DNA from: an uncultured bacterium
GTDB taxonomy: Bacteria > Cyanobacteriota > Vampirovibrionia > Gastranaerophilales > Gastranaerophilaceae
Reading direction: 5' to 3'
Assembly: GCA_902791985.1 (NCBI GenBank)
Contig: CADAYD010000015.1
Coordinates: forward strand, 1-53,338
DNA: 53,338 nucleotides
Both the position numbers and the translations under genes were made by a program. Numbering within the stretch: position 1 is the stretch's first letter; each line of letters begins with the position of its first letter. Below, one piece after another: positions 13,716 to 32,398 of this stretch. The notes beneath the pieces are model-generated. The model was not told where the DNA came from. It did not search any database and worked only from the letters and a program-made list of their open reading frames with translations.

Positions 13716-15857
13716 CTATCTCAAACTTTCCGGAACAGCAATTGGGATTTGTTCAGTCTTAGGTACTGGTGCTTGATTTTTCTTGAAATTATTATTAATG
13801 TCTGTTGGTGTAATGGGGTTGGATGTATTTGAATTATTTTTAACAGCTTCAAGTGCTCTTTCCTTAATTTCATTTGCTTCTTTTAGCAAGGCTTCTTCGT
13901 CTTCGGATTTAGCTTCGCTTTCGGCATTTTCGTCTCCTTCCGCAATAGGTTTGCCTTTATCACTAAGCACTATTTGAGGGTAATCAAAATCTTTGTTCCC
14001 GTATTTTTGAGTTGCAACAGTCATAATTTCTTTCCAAATTTTTGCCGGTATTGTTCCTCCTGTGAGACCGTGCATTTGTTTGTTATTGTCGTCTCCAACC
14101 CAAACTCCTGTAACAATATCCGGAGTATAGCCTACAAAATATGCATCTCTATAGTCATCTGTGGTTCCGGTTTTTCCGGCTGCAGGTTTGCCAATATTTG
14201 CGCCCATACCTGTTCCGTTGGTAATAACGGTTTTCATCATTGCCGTCATTTCTGCTGCGGTATTAGAACTTAGTTGATGAGAAGATTTTGTGCCTGTTGC
14301 TTTGTAAAGTATTCTGCCTCTTGAATCTTCTACTCTTTCTATCGCATAAGGCTCAACAACATAACCGCCATTAGCAAATGCGCCGTATGCTCTTACGAAT
14401 TCAAACAGTTTAACTCCGTTTGAACCCAATGAGATTGTGTAATCTTTTTCAAGAGGGGTTGTTATTCCCAAAACTCTTGCTAATTGTATTACAGAATGAA
14501 CACCTACTTCCCGTATTACTCTTGCCGCACATACATTTGATGAAACCATAAGTGCTTTATAAAGAGGAATTTTTCCTCTGTATTTGTTCCCGTAATTTCT
14601 TGGGGACCATTTTGAAATAGTTACCGGACTGTCATCTACAATGTCATTAGGCGAAAATCCTTTTTCCATTGCTGCGGCGTACACTATTGGTTTAAATGCT
14701 GATCCGGGAGGTCTTATAGCCTGTGTTACTCTATCGTATTGCGATTCCCCGTAATTTTTTCCCCCTGCATATACTAAAATTCTTCCGTCAATAGGACTGA
14801 ATGAAAATACTGCAGCCTGTTGTGTTTTATTTGTTAACCCATATGCTTTCATATTTGCTAGTATTGCTTCATTGGCTTTTTCTTGTGCTTTTGCATCAAG
14901 GGTTGTGATGACTTTATATCCGCCGTGTATAACTTCAGTTTCTTCAAATCCGAGTTTTTCTAACTCTTTCATAACATAGTCGCTGAAATATGGTGCTTTA
15001 TTTGTTGTGTATAATTGCGGAACGTTACTTAATTTAATCTCTGCTTCAATTGCTTTTTGGTATTCGTCCTTGGTAATATATTTCATTGTTAACATTCTTT
15101 TGAGAACCTGATTGCGACGCTTTTTTGCCAAATCAATGTTATTATAAGGGTTATAAACGGAAGGTGCTTGCGGAAGACCTGCTATTAAAGCAAGTTCCGG
15201 AAGGGTTAATTGATTTAATTTTTTATTGAAATATGTTTTTGCTGCGCCTGAGACCCCGTATGAACCCGCTCCCAGATACACGTTGTTAAGATACATTTCT
15301 AATATTTTATCCTTAGAAATGGTTTTTTCTATTCTTGTAGCAACTTCAAGTTCTTTAACTTTTCTTATTATTGTTCTTTCATTCGACAAAAAGAGTATTC
15401 TTGCAAGTTGTTGAGTGATTGTACTTGCTCCTTGTACAGTATGCATTGCAAGAACGTTTTGTATTGAGGAACGAACAATACCAAACAAATCATATCCTTT
15501 ATGTTTGTAAAAGTTTTTATCTTCTGTTGCAATAATCGCTTTTTTTAAATTGTCAGGAACATCTTTTAATTCGATTTTGTCATAGGTGTAAGTTGTAAAA
15601 GTTTTTATAATTTCTCCGTCAGCCGAATAGAATTTTGTTACGATATTCGGTCTGAAATCTTTTAAATTCTCTATTGGAGGGAGTGATGACAGGTAAAGAT
15701 TCAATGCGACAACTCCTGCAATAGCAAGTGCTGAAAAAACTATTACAAACATCTTTAAATATGTGAAAAATTTGTTTGTTTGGTTTATTGTCTTTTTTTC
15801 TCTTTTTGTACTTTGCTCTGCTCGTTGTTTTTTATAAGATTCGTATGACCTTGACAT
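13716..15857 (-). CDS. Class A penicillin-binding protein 1A
   Basis: 713 aa. A bifunctional peptidoglycan glycosyltransferase/transpeptidase anchored in the inner membrane by one helix (about 33-56). The GT51 domain (about 75-250) has catalytic E112 in ATEDKNFYKHKG and the ASTITQQLARILFL motif. The transpeptidase domain has SxxK at S386 (GSAFKP), SSN at 439-441 and KTG at 562-564. The C-terminal 75 residues are acidic then Asn/Pro-rich and probably disordered. An AGGGAGAG ribosome binding site precedes the ATG and lies partly in an inverted repeat (15859-15887). A TATAAT on the minus strand sits about 30 nt upstream. The gene ends just before the ribE promoter. Confidence 0.96.
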   Translation of the reverse strand: MSRSYESYKKQRAEQSTKREKKTINQTNKFFTYLKMFVIVFSALAIAGVVALNLYLSSLPPIENLKDFRPNIVTKFYSADGEIIKTFTTYTYDKIELKDVPDNLKKAIIATEDKNFYKHKGYDLFGIVRSSIQNVLAMHTVQGASTITQQLARILFLSNERTIIRKVKELEVATRIEKTISKDKILEMYLNNVYLGAGSYGVSGAAKTYFNKKLNQLTLPELALIAGLPQAPSVYNPYNNIDLAKKRRNQVLKRMLTMKYITKDEYQKAIEAEIKLSNVPQLYTTNKAPYFSDYVMKELEKLGFEETEVIHGGYKVITTLDAKAQEKANEAILANMKAYGLTNKTQQAAVFSFSPIDGRILVYAGGKNYGESQYDRVTQAIRPPGSAFKPIVYAAAMEKGFSPNDIVDDSPVTISKWSPRNYGNKYRGKIPLYKALMVSSNVCAARVIREVGVHSVIQLARVLGITTPLEKDYTISLGSNGVKLFEFVRAYGAFANGGYVVEPYAIERVEDSRGRILYKATGTKSSHQLSSNTAAEMTAMMKTVITNGTGMGANIGKPAAGKTGTTDDYRDAYFVGYTPDIVTGVWVGDDNNKQMHGLTGGTIPAKIWKEIMTVATQKYGNKDFDYPQIVLSDKGKPIAEGDENAESEAKSEDEEALLKEANEIKERALEAVKNNSNTSNPITPTDINNNFKKNQAPVPKTEQIPIAVPESLR

Positions 15858-24877: not shown

Positions 24878-24975
24878 TAAAATAATATCACAAATTGTTA
24901 ATAATATTGAATGTTACCTTATAATATGTTATAATAAAATGTATAGGCTATAAGTCATTTGGAGTTATTTTGAGG

Positions 24976-26781
24976 ATGGAATCAGGGCACAAAGCATTTT
25001 CTTTAACTGAATTGTTAATAGTATTGGTTGTTGTTGCGTTATTGTTTGCTGCTCTTGCTCCTATTCTTACCAAAAGACATGTATCCGAAAATGCTGCAAC
25101 CGAGTCTATTTGGAATTTTGTCCCGGGTGATGGAGAAAGGAACGTATACTTTGATCCCGGTAACGAAAGCTGGACTTCAAGTATTTATATGGGAATGGTA
25201 CCTTCACGTACGATAAACGATTCAAATTCAGGAAAGTTAGTCATTGATTCCGGTGATATAACGTATAATTCGGTTACATATAAACAGCCGCAAATTCAAT
25301 TTAGGTTTTCTCCCGATATTCAGCAGCAAGGCAGGGGTTTAAATTCGGCTAATCTTTTTGTTGATGAAACAAATTTGATTTTCGGACCTTCACTTGTTAA
25401 TACAAATCTTTCACAAACAACTATTTATGGTTTATCAAATCTAAAAAATCCATCAAGTGCGAATGCCTTAACTATTATGGGTAAGGACGCAATGGGTAAT
25501 GCAAATGTATCCGAAAACGGATTATATAATTATATCATTGCAATCGGTAACAGAGCTGCATATAACTTGGGTACGGATACTTCTTCAATTAACGGTATAT
25601 ATATAGGCGCTAATTCAGGTGCAGGCTCAGCCGAAACTGATACTATTCCTACAGATAACGTAGCAATTGGTTATAATACATCCAATAAAGCCGGATTTGC
25701 CGGCTCAGGGAACGTATTTTTAGGCGCATTTACAGGAAATGGTTTTAATAATGCTGCTTCAAATTATAATACAATTGTCGGGTCTGTATTTTACGGTGAA
25801 AATGCGGCTTACAATACATTAATTGGTTATGGAACATATCAAGTCGGAGATTCTAATATTAAAAATATTACAGCAATAGGATATGGCGCTTGTAATTCTG
25901 TCGAAAATGTTTCTGACGGTTCAAGAATTTGTATCGGTTACAACTCCGGTTATTCAACAAACTATACTCCGTCCTCTTTTAATACTGATTCGGGTGAGCA
26001 TATATTTTTAGGCGGAAAGCCTGAGATTCCTTCTCTTGGCGGCAATGGTTTTTCCGGAAGGTCTGTTTTAGAGGTGCATAATATTCCGGTAAATGATATA
26101 AATTATGGTTATGTTGTTCTAAATTCGAATCTTGTGGTTAGAGGTAATTTTTATCCGTCTAATTTATCAAAGCAAGTTGTATACAATCAATTTGCATCAA
26201 CAAGAGATATTGGTGCAGAAAAAGAATATTTCCGTTGCAATACAGATGATGTTATTTCGGGTAGTTCTTTTGTCGGGATTAATGATAAATATGTTTGTAA
26301 AGGTTTAGTGTCTGCTCGCCCAAAATCTATAAATGCGCTAAAATATAATGGCGCGTGTTCTAATAATTCAGGATATACAAGCGGCTCAAATTGTCCAAAT
26401 ATTACTTCTGATATAAGATTAAAAAATATTATTTCCGAAAATACAGATGGTATTGATAAGCTTGAAAAATTAATTTTGTATAATTATACTTATAAAAATA
26501 ACCCAAAAACTCCTCAGGTCGGGGTTATTGCGCAAGATTTGCAAAAAGTTTTCCCGAATTCTGTTTCAAAAGATTCTCAGGGATTTTTAAAAATTCGCTG
26601 GGATGAGATGTTTTATTCTCTTATAAATTCAATCAAGGCTCTTGCTGCGAAAGTAGAGGATTTATTCTCAAAAGTCGCCAAATTGGAGGCTGATGTAACT
26701 ACGGTAAAAAATGATCAATCAGATATTAAGTCACAGATATCAGTTATAAACAAAAGAATTAAAAGGCTGGAAAAGGAGTAG
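24976..26781 (+). CDS. Prepilin-like protein with YadA-head-like repeats and S74 chaperone domain (copy 1)
   Basis: About 601 aa. Residues 1-35 are a type IV prepilin-like signal/helix (HKA-FSLTELLIVLVVV), with the conserved Glu at +5 but Ala instead of Gly before the cleavage site. A conserved segment with a Trp (SIWNF) and IYMGMVPS follows. The middle (about 170-350) has short beta-repeats with NxxIG/NVAIGYN motifs, as in YadA-like heads and tail fibres. The C-terminus (about 478-601) is a peptidase S74 intramolecular chaperone: SDIRLKN with the Ser/Lys pair for self-cleavage, VGVIAQDLQKVFPNSV, IRWDEMFY, then a coiled coil. GGAG lies 11 nt before the ATG at 24976; a TTG at 24970 is an alternative start. 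It is six bases from the next homologous gene, so an operon. Confidence 0.85.
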   Translation: MESGHKAFSLTELLIVLVVVALLFAALAPILTKRHVSENAATESIWNFVPGDGERNVYFDPGNESWTSSIYMGMVPSRTINDSNSGKLVIDSGDITYNSVTYKQPQIQFRFSPDIQQQGRGLNSANLFVDETNLIFGPSLVNTNLSQTTIYGLSNLKNPSSANALTIMGKDAMGNANVSENGLYNYIIAIGNRAAYNLGTDTSSINGIYIGANSGAGSAETDTIPTDNVAIGYNTSNKAGFAGSGNVFLGAFTGNGFNNAASNYNTIVGSVFYGENAAYNTLIGYGTYQVGDSNIKNITAIGYGACNSVENVSDGSRICIGYNSGYSTNYTPSSFNTDSGEHIFLGGKPEIPSLGGNGFSGRSVLEVHNIPVNDINYGYVVLNSNLVVRGNFYPSNLSKQVVYNQFASTRDIGAEKEYFRCNTDDVISGSSFVGINDKYVCKGLVSARPKSINALKYNGACSNNSGYTSGSNCPNITSDIRLKNIISENTDGIDKLEKLILYNYTYKNNPKTPQVGVIAQDLQKVFPNSVSKDSQGFLKIRWDEMFYSLINSIKALAAKVEDLFSKVAKLEADVTTVKNDQSDIKSQISVINKRIKRLEKE

Positions 26782-26787
26782 AGGTAA

Positions 26788-28977
26788 ATGTTTATATATA
26801 GGATAAAAAAATATTTAGCATTTACGCTTGCGGAATTAATGGTTATAATGGCTGTTATGACTGTTATTTTGGCTGCTCTTGCTCCTATATTTACGTCAAG
26901 ATACACCAATGTAGCATTCGACAGTGTTTGGAGTTATATTGGTGCTAATGATGAAATGAACGATATATATACAGATGCTCCTATGCGTTCTATGATCCAG
27001 CAGGTATTTATAGGAATTACTCCTACGGATTTAGAAGATGTAAGGGCAACATTTAAGCCGTATTCAAAAGTTATTATTCGCTCAAGTCATCAAATTGATG
27101 GCTCAAAAAAACAGAAGCAAATACAATTTAAATATAATGAAACAGATTATGGTTATTTATATGCTGCAAATAGAAATATACTGTTAGGCGGGGATTATAA
27201 TGATTTAGCATTTACCTATAATGCCCCATTTAGTCCTGCTACGGAAAAATTACCTTTGCAGGTTGTAGTTCTGGATAGTACCGACGATGCACATGAGAAT
27301 ACAGCACTAGGGCGAGGTGCTTTAAATGCTCTTACAACTGGTTCATATAATGCTGCATTTGGTTATAAAGCATTAAATCACCTAACAACAGGAAATTATA
27401 ACACTGCGGTTGGAGTTTCTGCAGGTGAAGAATTAAGGTCCGGAGACGGTAATGTTCTTGTTGGTTATAATTCGTATAATTCTGAATCTGGAGAATACAA
27501 TACAATAATCGGGAATAATAATTCTTCTTCCGGAACGTCAGACTATTCTACTGCAATCGGTAATGGTATAAAAATTAATGGGAATTACAATGTCGCAATA
27601 GGTTATGGTTCAAGCGCTATGGGTTCTTTTAATACGGCTGTTGGATACAAGGCTCTTAGTAATGATGATGTAAATTCTTCGGATTCGATTAATAATTTTC
27701 AATATAATACTGCTATAGGCTATAATTCTTGTCGTGGTATAGGTCTTGGATCAAAAAATTTAACTTGTATCGGAGGTGTTGGCTCCGATTCAAATATGTC
27801 AGATATTGCAAAAAGTTTTTATAATGATGGAAATTCAAGAGTTCTTATTGGTAGAGGAGTTGATATAAATAACAGTAGGACTGCGGCTACTCTTGAAGTC
27901 CACAATTTAACCTCAAACAATTCGAAGTTCCCATATCCTGGGAGTACGACTAGTGCAGGAATTGGAGACTCGTCGGTTATTGTTAACGGGAATTTAATTG
28001 TCAGAGGTCAGACATATATGACAGGGAGATCGATTTTCCCGATTGCACCATACAGTAATGAATCTACTGTTTATACAAATTATAAAATGTCTCTAATGGG
28101 TTATAGACTTTACAGAGAGGCTACAGCTACAGAACATAAACCGCTAATTGGTTATGATGGCAGTGAATATACTATGAGGTTGCAGGATGAAGGTAAGACT
28201 GGCAAACCTTTCAGAGAAGCTTATACCGGTATGGAGCATTGTATTTGTTCATATTCTTGTTCGGAGAATTCTTTGAATTCTGCATATGATTGGTCAAAAT
28301 TAAATTTTGATAGTTATTCTTATGTTACAAATAGTTTTTATGCAGGGAATAATGATTATTTATGGGGTGCTAGTAATCATAGCTGCGGCAATACTTATAA
28401 CATTTCGAGTACAAATAATCTGGTGAATGTTGAATTAAGCAGGGCAAGAAATATTATTGAGTTGGATAAGTTATTAGGTGGTTCAACTCGTGAGGATATT
28501 ATTAAGGCTATGTCAGGTTCAGGTTCTTGCTGCCCGATTTTAAATAGTGGTGGGGTTCGTAAGGTTTTTGGCGACGTAGATGACGATGAAGAATTCTCAA
28601 GTGATTTACGTTTGAAAAATATTATATCTCCGTTCAAAAATTCTGTTGATCTTTTATCTCGTTTAAAAATTTACAACTATAATTTCAAATCCGATAAAAA
28701 TAAATCACCTTTTGTTGGGGTTATAGCGCAGGATTTAAAAGCGATATTCCCGAATTCCGTATCAAAAGATGAAAAAGGTTATTATAGGATTCGTTGGGAT
28801 GAAATGTTTTATACTGCAATAAATTCTGTAAAAGAGTTAAATTCAAAAATTCTTGCTTTGGCTGACAGAATACAAACTGACATTTCTCGTATTATTACTC
28901 TTAAAAAAGAAAATAATATGTTGAGAAAGAAATTATTTGAATTATCAAACGAGTTAGATTTATTGGAAAACAAATAA
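26788..28977 (+). CDS. Prepilin-like protein with YadA-head-like repeats and S74 chaperone domain (copy 2)
   Basis: 729 aa, the longest copy. The prepilin-like N-terminus is KKYLA-FTLAELMVIMAVM, again Ala at -1. Then follow DSVWSY and VFIGITP, and a long block of repeats from about 171 to 330 (NTALGRGALNALTTG, NTAVGVSAG, NVAIGYG, NTAVGYKAL), a Cys-containing insert of about 200 residues absent in copy 1 (HCICSYSC, SGSCCPI), and the S74 domain from SDLRLKN at residue 605 to the end with a leucine-rich terminal coiled coil. GGAG/GAGG precede the ATG and overlap the upstream stop region. S74 domains normally trimerise and then cleave themselves off tail spikes, so this would be a trimeric fibre anchored by a pilin helix; that assembly model is inference. 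Confidence 0.85.
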   Translation: MFIYRIKKYLAFTLAELMVIMAVMTVILAALAPIFTSRYTNVAFDSVWSYIGANDEMNDIYTDAPMRSMIQQVFIGITPTDLEDVRATFKPYSKVIIRSSHQIDGSKKQKQIQFKYNETDYGYLYAANRNILLGGDYNDLAFTYNAPFSPATEKLPLQVVVLDSTDDAHENTALGRGALNALTTGSYNAAFGYKALNHLTTGNYNTAVGVSAGEELRSGDGNVLVGYNSYNSESGEYNTIIGNNNSSSGTSDYSTAIGNGIKINGNYNVAIGYGSSAMGSFNTAVGYKALSNDDVNSSDSINNFQYNTAIGYNSCRGIGLGSKNLTCIGGVGSDSNMSDIAKSFYNDGNSRVLIGRGVDINNSRTAATLEVHNLTSNNSKFPYPGSTTSAGIGDSSVIVNGNLIVRGQTYMTGRSIFPIAPYSNESTVYTNYKMSLMGYRLYREATATEHKPLIGYDGSEYTMRLQDEGKTGKPFREAYTGMEHCICSYSCSENSLNSAYDWSKLNFDSYSYVTNSFYAGNNDYLWGASNHSCGNTYNISSTNNLVNVELSRARNIIELDKLLGGSTREDIIKAMSGSGSCCPILNSGGVRKVFGDVDDDEEFSSDLRLKNIISPFKNSVDLLSRLKIYNYNFKSDKNKSPFVGVIAQDLKAIFPNSVSKDEKGYYRIRWDEMFYTAINSVKELNSKILALADRIQTDISRIITLKKENNMLRKKLFELSNELDLLENK

Positions 28978-28989
28978 TTTTTATTGTGC

Positions 28990-29025
28990 AAAAAAGCGGA
29001 ATGATTATAGTCATTCCGCTTTTTT
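28990..29025. terminator. Bidirectional terminator between the S74 operon and metK
   Basis: A perfect 15-bp stem (28990-29004 with 29011-29025) with a 6-nt loop. A-runs on the left and T-runs on the right arm let it serve the convergent genes on both strands. Confidence 0.85.
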
Positions 29026-30473: not shown

Positions 30474-32261
30474 CTATTTATTTTTAAGTTTATTGACTCT
30501 TCTGGCTAATGAATTAATCTGCTCTTTCAATTTTTTATTTTCATTTTCTAATTCTGTAATTTTAGTTTCGATTTTATCAGTTCTGTTTATAAGAGATGTA
30601 ATTTTTGAATTTAATTCTTTTATTGCATTTATTGCTGCATAAAACATTTCATCCCAGCGTATTTTTAAATATCCGTTTTCGTCTTTTGATACAGAATTAG
30701 GGAATATTTTTTGTAATTCTTGCGCTATAACACCTACATGTGGCTTTTTATCTTTGTCATTTTTAAACGTATAGTTATAGACTTTAATTTGTTTTATTTT
30801 ATCTAGCCCATCTGTATTTTTTGATAAAATATTTTTCAAGCGCCTATCGCTTGTAATAAGACTCAATTCAGCGCATTTATTTGTATTGTTAAAAATATAT
30901 GTTTTTTGGTTGTTCGCACATTTATCTGCTAATTTTGTCCCAAATATATTATTTTCATAATAAAACGGATACAGTGCATTACCCATAGTGAGATATGTTT
31001 TCCCTCTAACAATCAAATTCCCGTTTATTACTGTTGTTACATTTGATTTTATTTGGGGATTATTTAGAAGTCCTGCATTTGGAATCCCTTTAATGTTATG
31101 GATTTCCAGAGTTGCATCACCAGGGTATTGATTAGTAGCCCAGCTGTTTTGCTCTTTATCATAGTGCGGGTTTGTCCCGATATATGTCCTTTGATTATTA
31201 TCTGCAGATTTTAACCCAAGTTCTTTTTTTACGGGGGAATTTAATGGTGGAGTTCCATCTGATGTGAGTACCGGGCCTGAATTTGCACCAATACATGTGA
31301 TATAAGATTCTCCGGTTATACCAAAACAAGAGTTATATCCTATTGCTACATTATATTTACCGGTTGTTAAGTTTGGTAACGCATTGGCGCCAATTGCAAC
31401 GTTATAATTCCCGTTATTGATACTATTCATGGCATTATAACCAAGAGCAACGTTATAAGAATATGAGCCATTAGTAGCACTATATCCAGTTTTTGCTCCT
31501 ACAAAAGTATTGAATGCTCCGGTTGCGGGAGTAGGAGATGAATATGCTCCGATGTAAGTATTAGAAGATGCACTACTGTTCTGTCCTGCCATGTAGCCTA
31601 TATATGTATTTAAAATTCCGCTGGCAGTATTTTCTCCTGCATTTGCTCCAATTGCTGTGTTTTCTCTTGTTGAACCGCCTATATTTTTTAGTGTTGAAGA
31701 ACCAAATGCAACATTATTACGTATTTGAAAAGATTTATTCTCATCTGTAATGGTGTTAAATGTATGGTATCCAAAACCAATATTATTTGCTGGATAAGAT
31801 GAAATGTTGTGTTTTTTGTCAAGCATGTAAAAATAAGAACCGAAGAGCAGATTGGTATTATCGGCTAAAAATGTTGCTGCAAGTTGTCCTGGATCTTCAA
31901 GACTGTTACGCCCATATCTTAGTTGTAACTGGTTTTGTATTGTATTATCCGATACATATCCTGAACGTATAACAAGTTTTGATAAAGGAGTATAAGATTC
32001 TTTTATATCAGATTCCGAATCAGGAGTTGTTCCTATATATATACCTCCCAAATAACTATTGCTTATAGGTTTAAAATAAGCATTCATAGGCCCTGCCATA
32101 TAGTTACGGCTAGACCAGTTCCACATATCTTGTGCTATGCTGTGATTTTTTTTTCTTTTTGTTATAAATGGGGCAAAAGCAGCAAACAAAATAGTCAATA
32201 CAAGAAGCACTACCATAACTTCCGCAAGCGTAAATGCAGGTTTCTTTTTTGTGTTTATCAT
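30474..32261 (-). CDS. Prepilin-like protein with YadA-head-like repeats and S74 chaperone domain (copy 3)
   Basis: 595 aa from the ATG at 32261, chosen because GGGAG lies 5 nt upstream. The prepilin-like start is KKKPA-FTLAEVMVVLLVL, Ala at -1 as in the other two copies. QDMWNW and IYIGTTP follow, then repeats (NIGFGYHTF, NVAFGSSTL, NTAIGANAG, NTYIGYMAG, NVALGYNAM, NVAIGANAL) over about 170-330, a short linker, and the S74 domain from SDRRLKN at about 471, ending in a Lys/Glu-rich coiled coil. It is on the opposite strand from copies 1 and 2, on the other side of metK, and appears to be its own transcription unit. Confidence 0.85.
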   Translation of the reverse strand: MINTKKKPAFTLAEVMVVLLVLTILFAAFAPFITKRKKNHSIAQDMWNWSSRNYMAGPMNAYFKPISNSYLGGIYIGTTPDSESDIKESYTPLSKLVIRSGYVSDNTIQNQLQLRYGRNSLEDPGQLAATFLADNTNLLFGSYFYMLDKKHNISSYPANNIGFGYHTFNTITDENKSFQIRNNVAFGSSTLKNIGGSTRENTAIGANAGENTASGILNTYIGYMAGQNSSASSNTYIGAYSSPTPATGAFNTFVGAKTGYSATNGSYSYNVALGYNAMNSINNGNYNVAIGANALPNLTTGKYNVAIGYNSCFGITGESYITCIGANSGPVLTSDGTPPLNSPVKKELGLKSADNNQRTYIGTNPHYDKEQNSWATNQYPGDATLEIHNIKGIPNAGLLNNPQIKSNVTTVINGNLIVRGKTYLTMGNALYPFYYENNIFGTKLADKCANNQKTYIFNNTNKCAELSLITSDRRLKNILSKNTDGLDKIKQIKVYNYTFKNDKDKKPHVGVIAQELQKIFPNSVSKDENGYLKIRWDEMFYAAINAIKELNSKITSLINRTDKIETKITELENENKKLKEQINSLARRVNKLKNK

Positions 32262-32398
32262 TTGTACTCCCATATCAACGTATTATACTCATTATAACAT
32301 GTTTTATATGTTATTTCAATTATTGCAACACAGTTTAACATGTTTTTTGTATATTTTTGTGATATGTTTTATTTGTGAAATATAAATGAGGATTTTTT

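Follow-up and report, generated by a model that had tools for sequence, protein, structure and literature searches.

What is the use of a protein that starts like a type IV pilin and ends like the tail fibre of a phage? The question is raised by three mutually related genes, A, B and C, on a contig of 53,338 nucleotides (CADAYD010000015.1 of assembly GCA_902791985.1), which was analysed over its whole length and is called the window below. The source genome (1.9 Mb, 34 contigs, 97.8% complete) belongs to the Gastranaerophilales (Melainabacteria), a non-photosynthetic cyanobacterial group of the gut, and a search of the whole genome returned A, B and C as its only genes with a Peptidase_S74 (S74) domain. 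The explanation that we regard as probable is that the three proteins are modular minor type IV pilins, trimerised by S74, self-cleaving and displayed by a type 4 filament as adhesive fibres. What the analysis yielded directly is the domain layout, the conservation of catalytic and pilin residues, the pattern of divergence and the occurrence of a pilus machinery in the genome.

Domain organization of the three proteins

A and B are the two adjoining open reading frames (ORFs) in which a first-pass annotation had seen a two-gene operon. Both are present where it placed them, but a third gene, C, had been overlooked.

24970..26781, + strand: gene A, prepilin-S74 protein, 603 aa from TTG 24970 (601 aa from the alternative ATG 24976)
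24997..25080, + strand: pilin alpha1-N segment of A after the cleavage point KA^FSLTELLIVLVVVALLFAALAP, with E5 and P22
26407..26565, + strand: Peptidase_S74 domain of A, with the predicted self-cleavage site immediately N-terminal to the Ser (codon 26407-26409) of SDIRLK
26788..28977, + strand: gene B, prepilin-S74 protein, 729 aa
26821..26904, + strand: pilin alpha1-N segment of B, LA^FTLAELMVIMAVMTVILAALAP, by the prepilin rule and a sub-threshold N_methyl match
28600..28761, + strand: Peptidase_S74 domain of B, with the predicted cleavage site N-terminal to the Ser (codon 28600-28602) of SDLRLK
30474..32273, - strand: gene C, third prepilin-S74 protein, 599 aa
30690..30851, - strand: Peptidase_S74 domain of C, with the predicted cleavage site N-terminal to the Ser (codon 30851-30849) of SDRRLK
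32151..32234, - strand: pilin alpha1-N segment of C, PA^FTLAEVMVVLLVLTILFAAFAP, with E5 and P22

For A, the start at 24970 is favoured by the presence of M-R-M at the same place in several relatives. The three proteins have a common layout, namely a prepilin start, a variable repeat-bearing middle, Peptidase_S74 and a C-terminal helix. Pfam recognizes the S74 domain far above its cut-off in each (E-values of 1.8e-12 for A, 5.4e-12 for B and 2.6e-16 for C), and the Ser and Lys of the SDxRLK motif, described earlier for A and B as lying five residues apart, are so spaced in both (SDIRLK and SDLRLK). The prepilin scores are modest because the prepilin part is short. In A, the signal is weaker than that of S74 (NCBIfam TIGR02532, 20.6 versus a cut-off of 16.3 bits); in C, both N_methyl and TIGR02532 exceed their cut-offs; in B, for which TIGR02532 was not reported, N_methyl is sub-threshold (17.0 versus 21.2 bits), and the N-terminus KKYLA^FTLAELMVIMAVMTVILAALAP obeys the prepilin rule, as do the B orthologues. 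In all three, the leader ends in a small residue and is followed by Phe at +1 and Glu at 5 (KA^FSLTE in A, LA^FTLAE in B and PA^FTLAE in C); P22 is present in each as well. The prepilin N-terminus and S74 domain first proposed for A and B are thus borne out by Pfam, by TIGR02532 in A and by conservation throughout the lineage.

The ‘YadA-head-like’ repeats attributed earlier to A and B resemble YadA heads only loosely. The pattern N-x-A-I/V-G is enriched in B (12 occurrences versus a mean of 2.9 and a maximum of 10 in 2000 shuffles) and in C (11 versus a mean of 1.9 and a maximum of 8) and not clearly in A (7 versus a mean of 2.8 and a maximum of 10), but no Pfam match to YadA_head or Hep_Hag was obtained in A, B or C at E-values up to 1. 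The nearest families are PHROG tail-fibre and tail-spike families, and the repeats belong to the kind that occurs together with S74 in phage tail fibres. The last repeat of all three contains a Cys pair (306/319 in A, 315/327 in B and 312/323 in C). A YadA-type autotransporter was rejected: YadA_head is missing, and the C-terminus consists of S74 and a helix, with no match to an outer-membrane anchor family.

AlphaFold models, computed for monomers and of low confidence (mean pLDDT of 52.7 for C and 48.9 for A), display an N-terminal helix (residues 12-34 in C and 10-32 in A) and, after S74, a C-terminal helix of about 58 residues (537-594 in C and 543-600 in A), which in these models is a candidate for a trimeric coiled coil. 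The top Foldseek matches of C are S74 structures, including 3gw6 and 4uw8, with weak E-values (0.06-0.6) that were not used as proof. When the PDB was searched by sequence, C matched only MyRF (E = 0.0074) and A matched nothing; CofB and TcpB were matched by neither.

Conserved cleavage centre and prepilin start, divergent middle

The wider family comprises 86 members, a first set having been chosen by motif and extras having been found by profile without a motif filter. The dyad Ser and Lys (Lys at Ser+5) are invariant (86/86), including in the profile-found extras. Around them, Arg at +3 is kept in 83 of the 86 members, YxY in 55 of the 86 and the Gln of GVIAQ in each of the 84 that could be scored. 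In MyRF, where S74-type cleavage by the intramolecular chaperone autoprocessing (ICA) domain requires trimers, uses a Ser-Lys dyad five residues apart and follows trimerisation driven by a C-terminal coiled coil, mutations have tested the cleavage centre at S587, R590, K592, Y615, Y617 and Q639 (PMC8326128). The conserved residues of the family match this tested centre.

Another use of the domain would be that of a pilus-displayed peptidase acting on other proteins. In the available part of the catalogue of modular pilins by Raynaud et al. (2021), the combination IPR012902 plus IPR030392, which has the same layout as A, B and C, is among the 15 most frequent and is counted and read as a pilin with a predicted S74 peptidase module, a reading that suggests such an effector (PMC8179133). 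However, the characterized S74/ICA domains considered here trimerise and then cleave the chain to which they belong (PMC8326128, PMC10769870), and a repeat shaft and a coiled coil fit a chaperone, so that we consider an effector role very improbable.

A prepilin start is recognizable in 80 of the 86 members. Although neither the -1 residue nor P22 was among the criteria of the prepilin motif filter, the -1 residue of these 80 is Ala in 57, Gly in 22 and Ser in 1, and Pro at +22 is present in all of them (80/80). Of the other six members, four are truncated by the end of their contig, a fifth is a fragment and the sixth (L032_3, family f4) is a complete ORF that has no such start. In other genomes, with one to twelve copies, the starts that can be read are prepilins, one ORF (L100) being unclear. 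A separate phage-like S74 ORF without a prepilin start was seen at locus L040. Of the loci obtained from outside the order, most do not extend far enough to include the N-terminus.

Identity to six close relatives is highest in the pilin helix (75-96%), lower in the S74 core (58-86%) and lowest in the middle (46-54%), while the neighbouring housekeeping genes are mostly more than 85% identical. Such a gradient resembles what would be expected if a conserved carrier bore a binding part exposed to the outside.

A fibre module common to phages

Could A, B and C simply be tail-fibre genes of a prophage or of a phage remnant? Their repeat-plus-S74 part does have matches, at 26-42% identity, among PHROG tail-fibre families and in viral contigs. 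However, the viral S74 matches begin mostly at about residue 160-200 of C and extend to the S74 domain, and of the 91 S74 ORFs on the viral loci retrieved, none has a prepilin start. In addition, no phage genes adjoin, the neighbours being of housekeeping type and in conserved order, and conservation is highest in the pilin helix, all of which makes a phage origin of this kind hardly tenable. The shaft and S74 are shared with phages, whose loci, as far as examined, did not contain the fusion to a prepilin.

Pilus machinery in the genome

The genes for a prepilin peptidase and for pilus assembly, which the first-pass annotation had proposed to look for elsewhere in the genome, are present. A cluster on contig C1 encodes one secretin, one PilB/GspE-type ATPase and one PilC/GspF-type platform protein. 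The best scores are those of the type IV-A PilB model for the ATPase and of GspD for the secretin, both below cut-off; judged by these scores, the cluster could belong to either a type IV pilus or a type II secretion system. Two further genes, one on C16 for a PilT-type ATPase and one on C13 for a prepilin peptidase (a weak Peptidase_A24 match, E = 7.4e-5, with visible GxGD and Cys motifs), favour a retractile type IV pilus. Prepilin motifs occur at 14 places in the genome, A and C being among them (12 others), and pil genes are also found in published Gastranaerophilales genomes (PMC5877343).

Other components were noticed in passing. Four very similar tandem prepilin starts, KxGFTLAEVLITMGVIGVVAALTIPS (G000:C7:36272-38078; L079-L081, L087), are major-pilin candidates. 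The gene immediately upstream of that for the secretin (G000:C1, L066, about 13791-14639, minus strand) is lipoprotein-like and possibly encodes a PilP/GspC-type partner.

Proposed assembly route

The route that we propose combines three precedents: cleavage as in MyRF, a surface fibre as in Bd3182 of Bdellovibrio, a bacterial S74 protein for which self-cleavage at Ser782 has been demonstrated (PMC10769870), and a pilus tip as in CofB and TcpB, which are trimeric minor pilins at pilus tips (PMC9565799). From what is seen in the sequences, we infer trimerisation, cleavage, filament loading, tip position and an adhesive role. The class III signal would direct insertion into the inner membrane, with the N-terminus inside and the C-terminus in the periplasm, and PilD would cut off the leader at A^F. 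Three chains would then associate through their C-terminal coiled coils and S74 domains, by which the repeat shaft would be folded into a triple beta fibre. In a correct trimer, the Ser-Lys dyad would become active and cut just before SDxRLK, freeing a chaperone piece of roughly 125 residues. The pilin helices would feed the mature fibre into the single type 4 filament machine for display at the surface, most likely at the filament tip (a pilus-tip role had already been supposed in the first reading of A and B), where the fast-evolving shaft may bind surfaces, glycans or other cells.

Several observations weigh against this route. No family match to a pilin globular head was obtained after alpha1 in A, B or C, and the corresponding region, about residues 34-155, has a pLDDT below 50 in the models of A and C. 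A trimer with roughly 470-600 residues per chain would need passage through this secretin. Two genomes of the same genus (G003 and G006) have the same neighbours and neither A-B nor C. G006 keeps the pilus machine, and A, B and C are therefore not core pilus components; in G003, no secretin match and only partial PilB fragments were found, which may reflect assembly gaps. At the corresponding loci of these two genomes (L072 and L071), flagellar-type genes lie between the dnaX-like and valS-like genes.

The same observations can be read in favour of membrane-anchored surface or periplasmic fibres that are not pilus subunits, the prepilin-like segment serving only as an anchor, like a signal anchor, or as an anchor after PilD cleavage. 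The lack of a recognizable pilin globular domain, the position of A, B and C among housekeeping genes rather than in the C1 pilus cluster and the relative that retains the pilus machine without them would all be expected. However, P22 is a pilin hallmark that a plain anchor could dispense with and is kept without exception in the prepilin-motif members; some relatives have prepilin-S74 genes next to ordinary prepilins; and it is hard to account for a fibre of 600 residues crossing the outer membrane with no filament. We therefore take simple anchoring to be rather unlikely. At L027, L029, L036 and L054, genes for S74 pilins adjoin ordinary prepilin genes, as is the case in minor-pilin operons; these loci represent families of the order other than that of the window and the operon type of L036 and L054 described below.

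Three copies or many

The order-wide search lists matches for 29 genomes of the same genus, with three copies in 23 of them, four in five and two in one; elsewhere in the family the number goes from 1 to 12. The genomes of families f6 and f7 have three in tandem, and in both loci inspected one ordinary prepilin adjoins. In a tree of S74 (built from only 94 columns, which is few), the copies of the window's family cluster together (SH-aLRT 99). One-to-one orthology of A, B and C with the three copies of other families was sought in this tree and not seen, a result that gene conversion could mimic.

These numbers raise a variant of the pilus reading in which A, B and C would form one complex, either a heterotrimer or an ordered three-pilin tip (compare GspI-J-K), instead of three homotrimers. 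A need for three is hinted at by the recurrence of exactly this number, both in those 23 genomes of the genus and in each of the four genomes listed for two other families, together with three-gene sets that look separately formed in the S74 tree. However, other genera of the family have 1, 2, 4 or up to 12 copies, many of them a single one that must work alone, which weakens the heterotrimer idea; the extra gene type at L036 and L054 is single in its operon; and gene conversion among paralogues could also account for the tree. The variant is possible but, in our view, doubtful. More speculative still would be to see the phage fibre-folding module as a general route for loading pili, in which headless pilin helices carry self-trimerising, self-cleaving fibres, with A, B and C as one tip complex and up to 12 interchangeable adhesins in related genera.

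Three genomes (G060, G156 and G186; L089-L100) have 11-12 dispersed prepilin-S74 copies each. Several G060 contigs end inside such genes, which suggests near-identical repeats and perhaps a repertoire that switches or recombines. Some same-genus genomes (L036:4631-9447, L054:9902-14790) contain a distinct type of prepilin-S74 gene in single copy, with two prepilin-like genes and a gene for a TPR protein after it. This arrangement looks like a separate minor-pilin operon and is absent from the window's genome.

Comparison with known systems

The closest functional models, in our analysis, would be the trimeric pilus tips of CofB (CFA/III of enterotoxigenic Escherichia coli, ETEC) and TcpB (toxin-coregulated pilus, TCP, of Vibrio cholerae) and the mosaic adhesive trimer (MAT) fibres of Bdellovibrio bacteriovorus. 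The former are large minor pilins with beta-rich extra domains that form tip trimers, as proposed for A, B and C; in the sources as far as available, no S74 is described for them, and they keep a pilin domain, whereas none is recognized in A, B and C. The latter, for example Bd3182 (PMC10769870), are trimeric adhesive fibres of bacterial and not phage origin whose S74 domain (SDxxxK) cleaves itself, but they are described as starting with a signal peptide, after which comes a conserved beta-rich domain, pilins being unmentioned in that paper. Phage fibres and spikes (endosialidase endoNF, T5 L-shaped fibre) share the shaft and the C-terminal S74 with its Ser-Lys dyad, their N-terminus attaching to the virion, unlike the prepilin start of A, B and C. 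The MyRF ICA is membrane-tethered, of S74 type and similar in its cleavage-centre residues and the coiled coil that follows; in contrast to A, B and C, MyRF is an animal transcription factor of which the freed part goes to the nucleus.

In a full-text literature search, with most subscription papers outside its reach, no functional study of the prepilin-S74 architecture was found, and the combination of S74 and prepilin was returned for Raynaud et al. (2021) alone. The accessible part of that paper contains neither a trimer or chaperone reading nor a genomic analysis of this lineage (PMC8179133). The layout itself is thus already catalogued; what the present analysis adds is the locus of three genes with its distribution across the lineage, the finding that the cleavage centre is conserved, and the interpretation of S74 as a chaperone that trimerises the chains. 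If this reading is true, the purpose of S74 in a frequent but unstudied architecture would be folding and quality control and not that of a pilus-borne protease, and a pilus would be able to bear a phage-type trimeric fibre that is trimmed once it has assembled. The reading would also give a testable account of attachment by an uncultured gut lineage and a clean case of combined phage and pilus parts.

Gene neighbourhood

The neighbouring genes are those that we take, from their sequences, to be dnaX, typA, an MFS transporter gene, metK and valS. The local order is typA(-), MFS transporter(-), A(+), B(+), metK(-), C(-) and valS(+), C lying beyond metK on the strand opposite to A-B, and the flanking order is the same in many relatives. 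Since only 6 bases separate the A stop codon from the B start and a strong hairpin terminator follows B, A and B look like one transcription unit. The associated signals are listed below; the promoter-like sites are consensus matches only and are not commoner here than in shuffled sequence.

24907..24935, + strand: promoter-like site of the A-B unit, TTGAAT-17-TATAAT, with TG before the second hexamer
28990..29025, + strand: terminator-like hairpin after B, 16 pairs plus a T run
32291..32319, - strand: promoter-like site of C, TTGAAA-17-TATAAT, with TG before the second hexamer, 11/12

The site before C has the same second hexamer and spacing as that before A. Elsewhere in the genome, a prepilin ORF starts at G000:C5:41785 (L077, L191); its length of 26,118 aa was rejected as an artefact of an N stretch, and its readable part has about 2000 residues with 207 Cys, so that a very large Cys-rich prepilin may be real.

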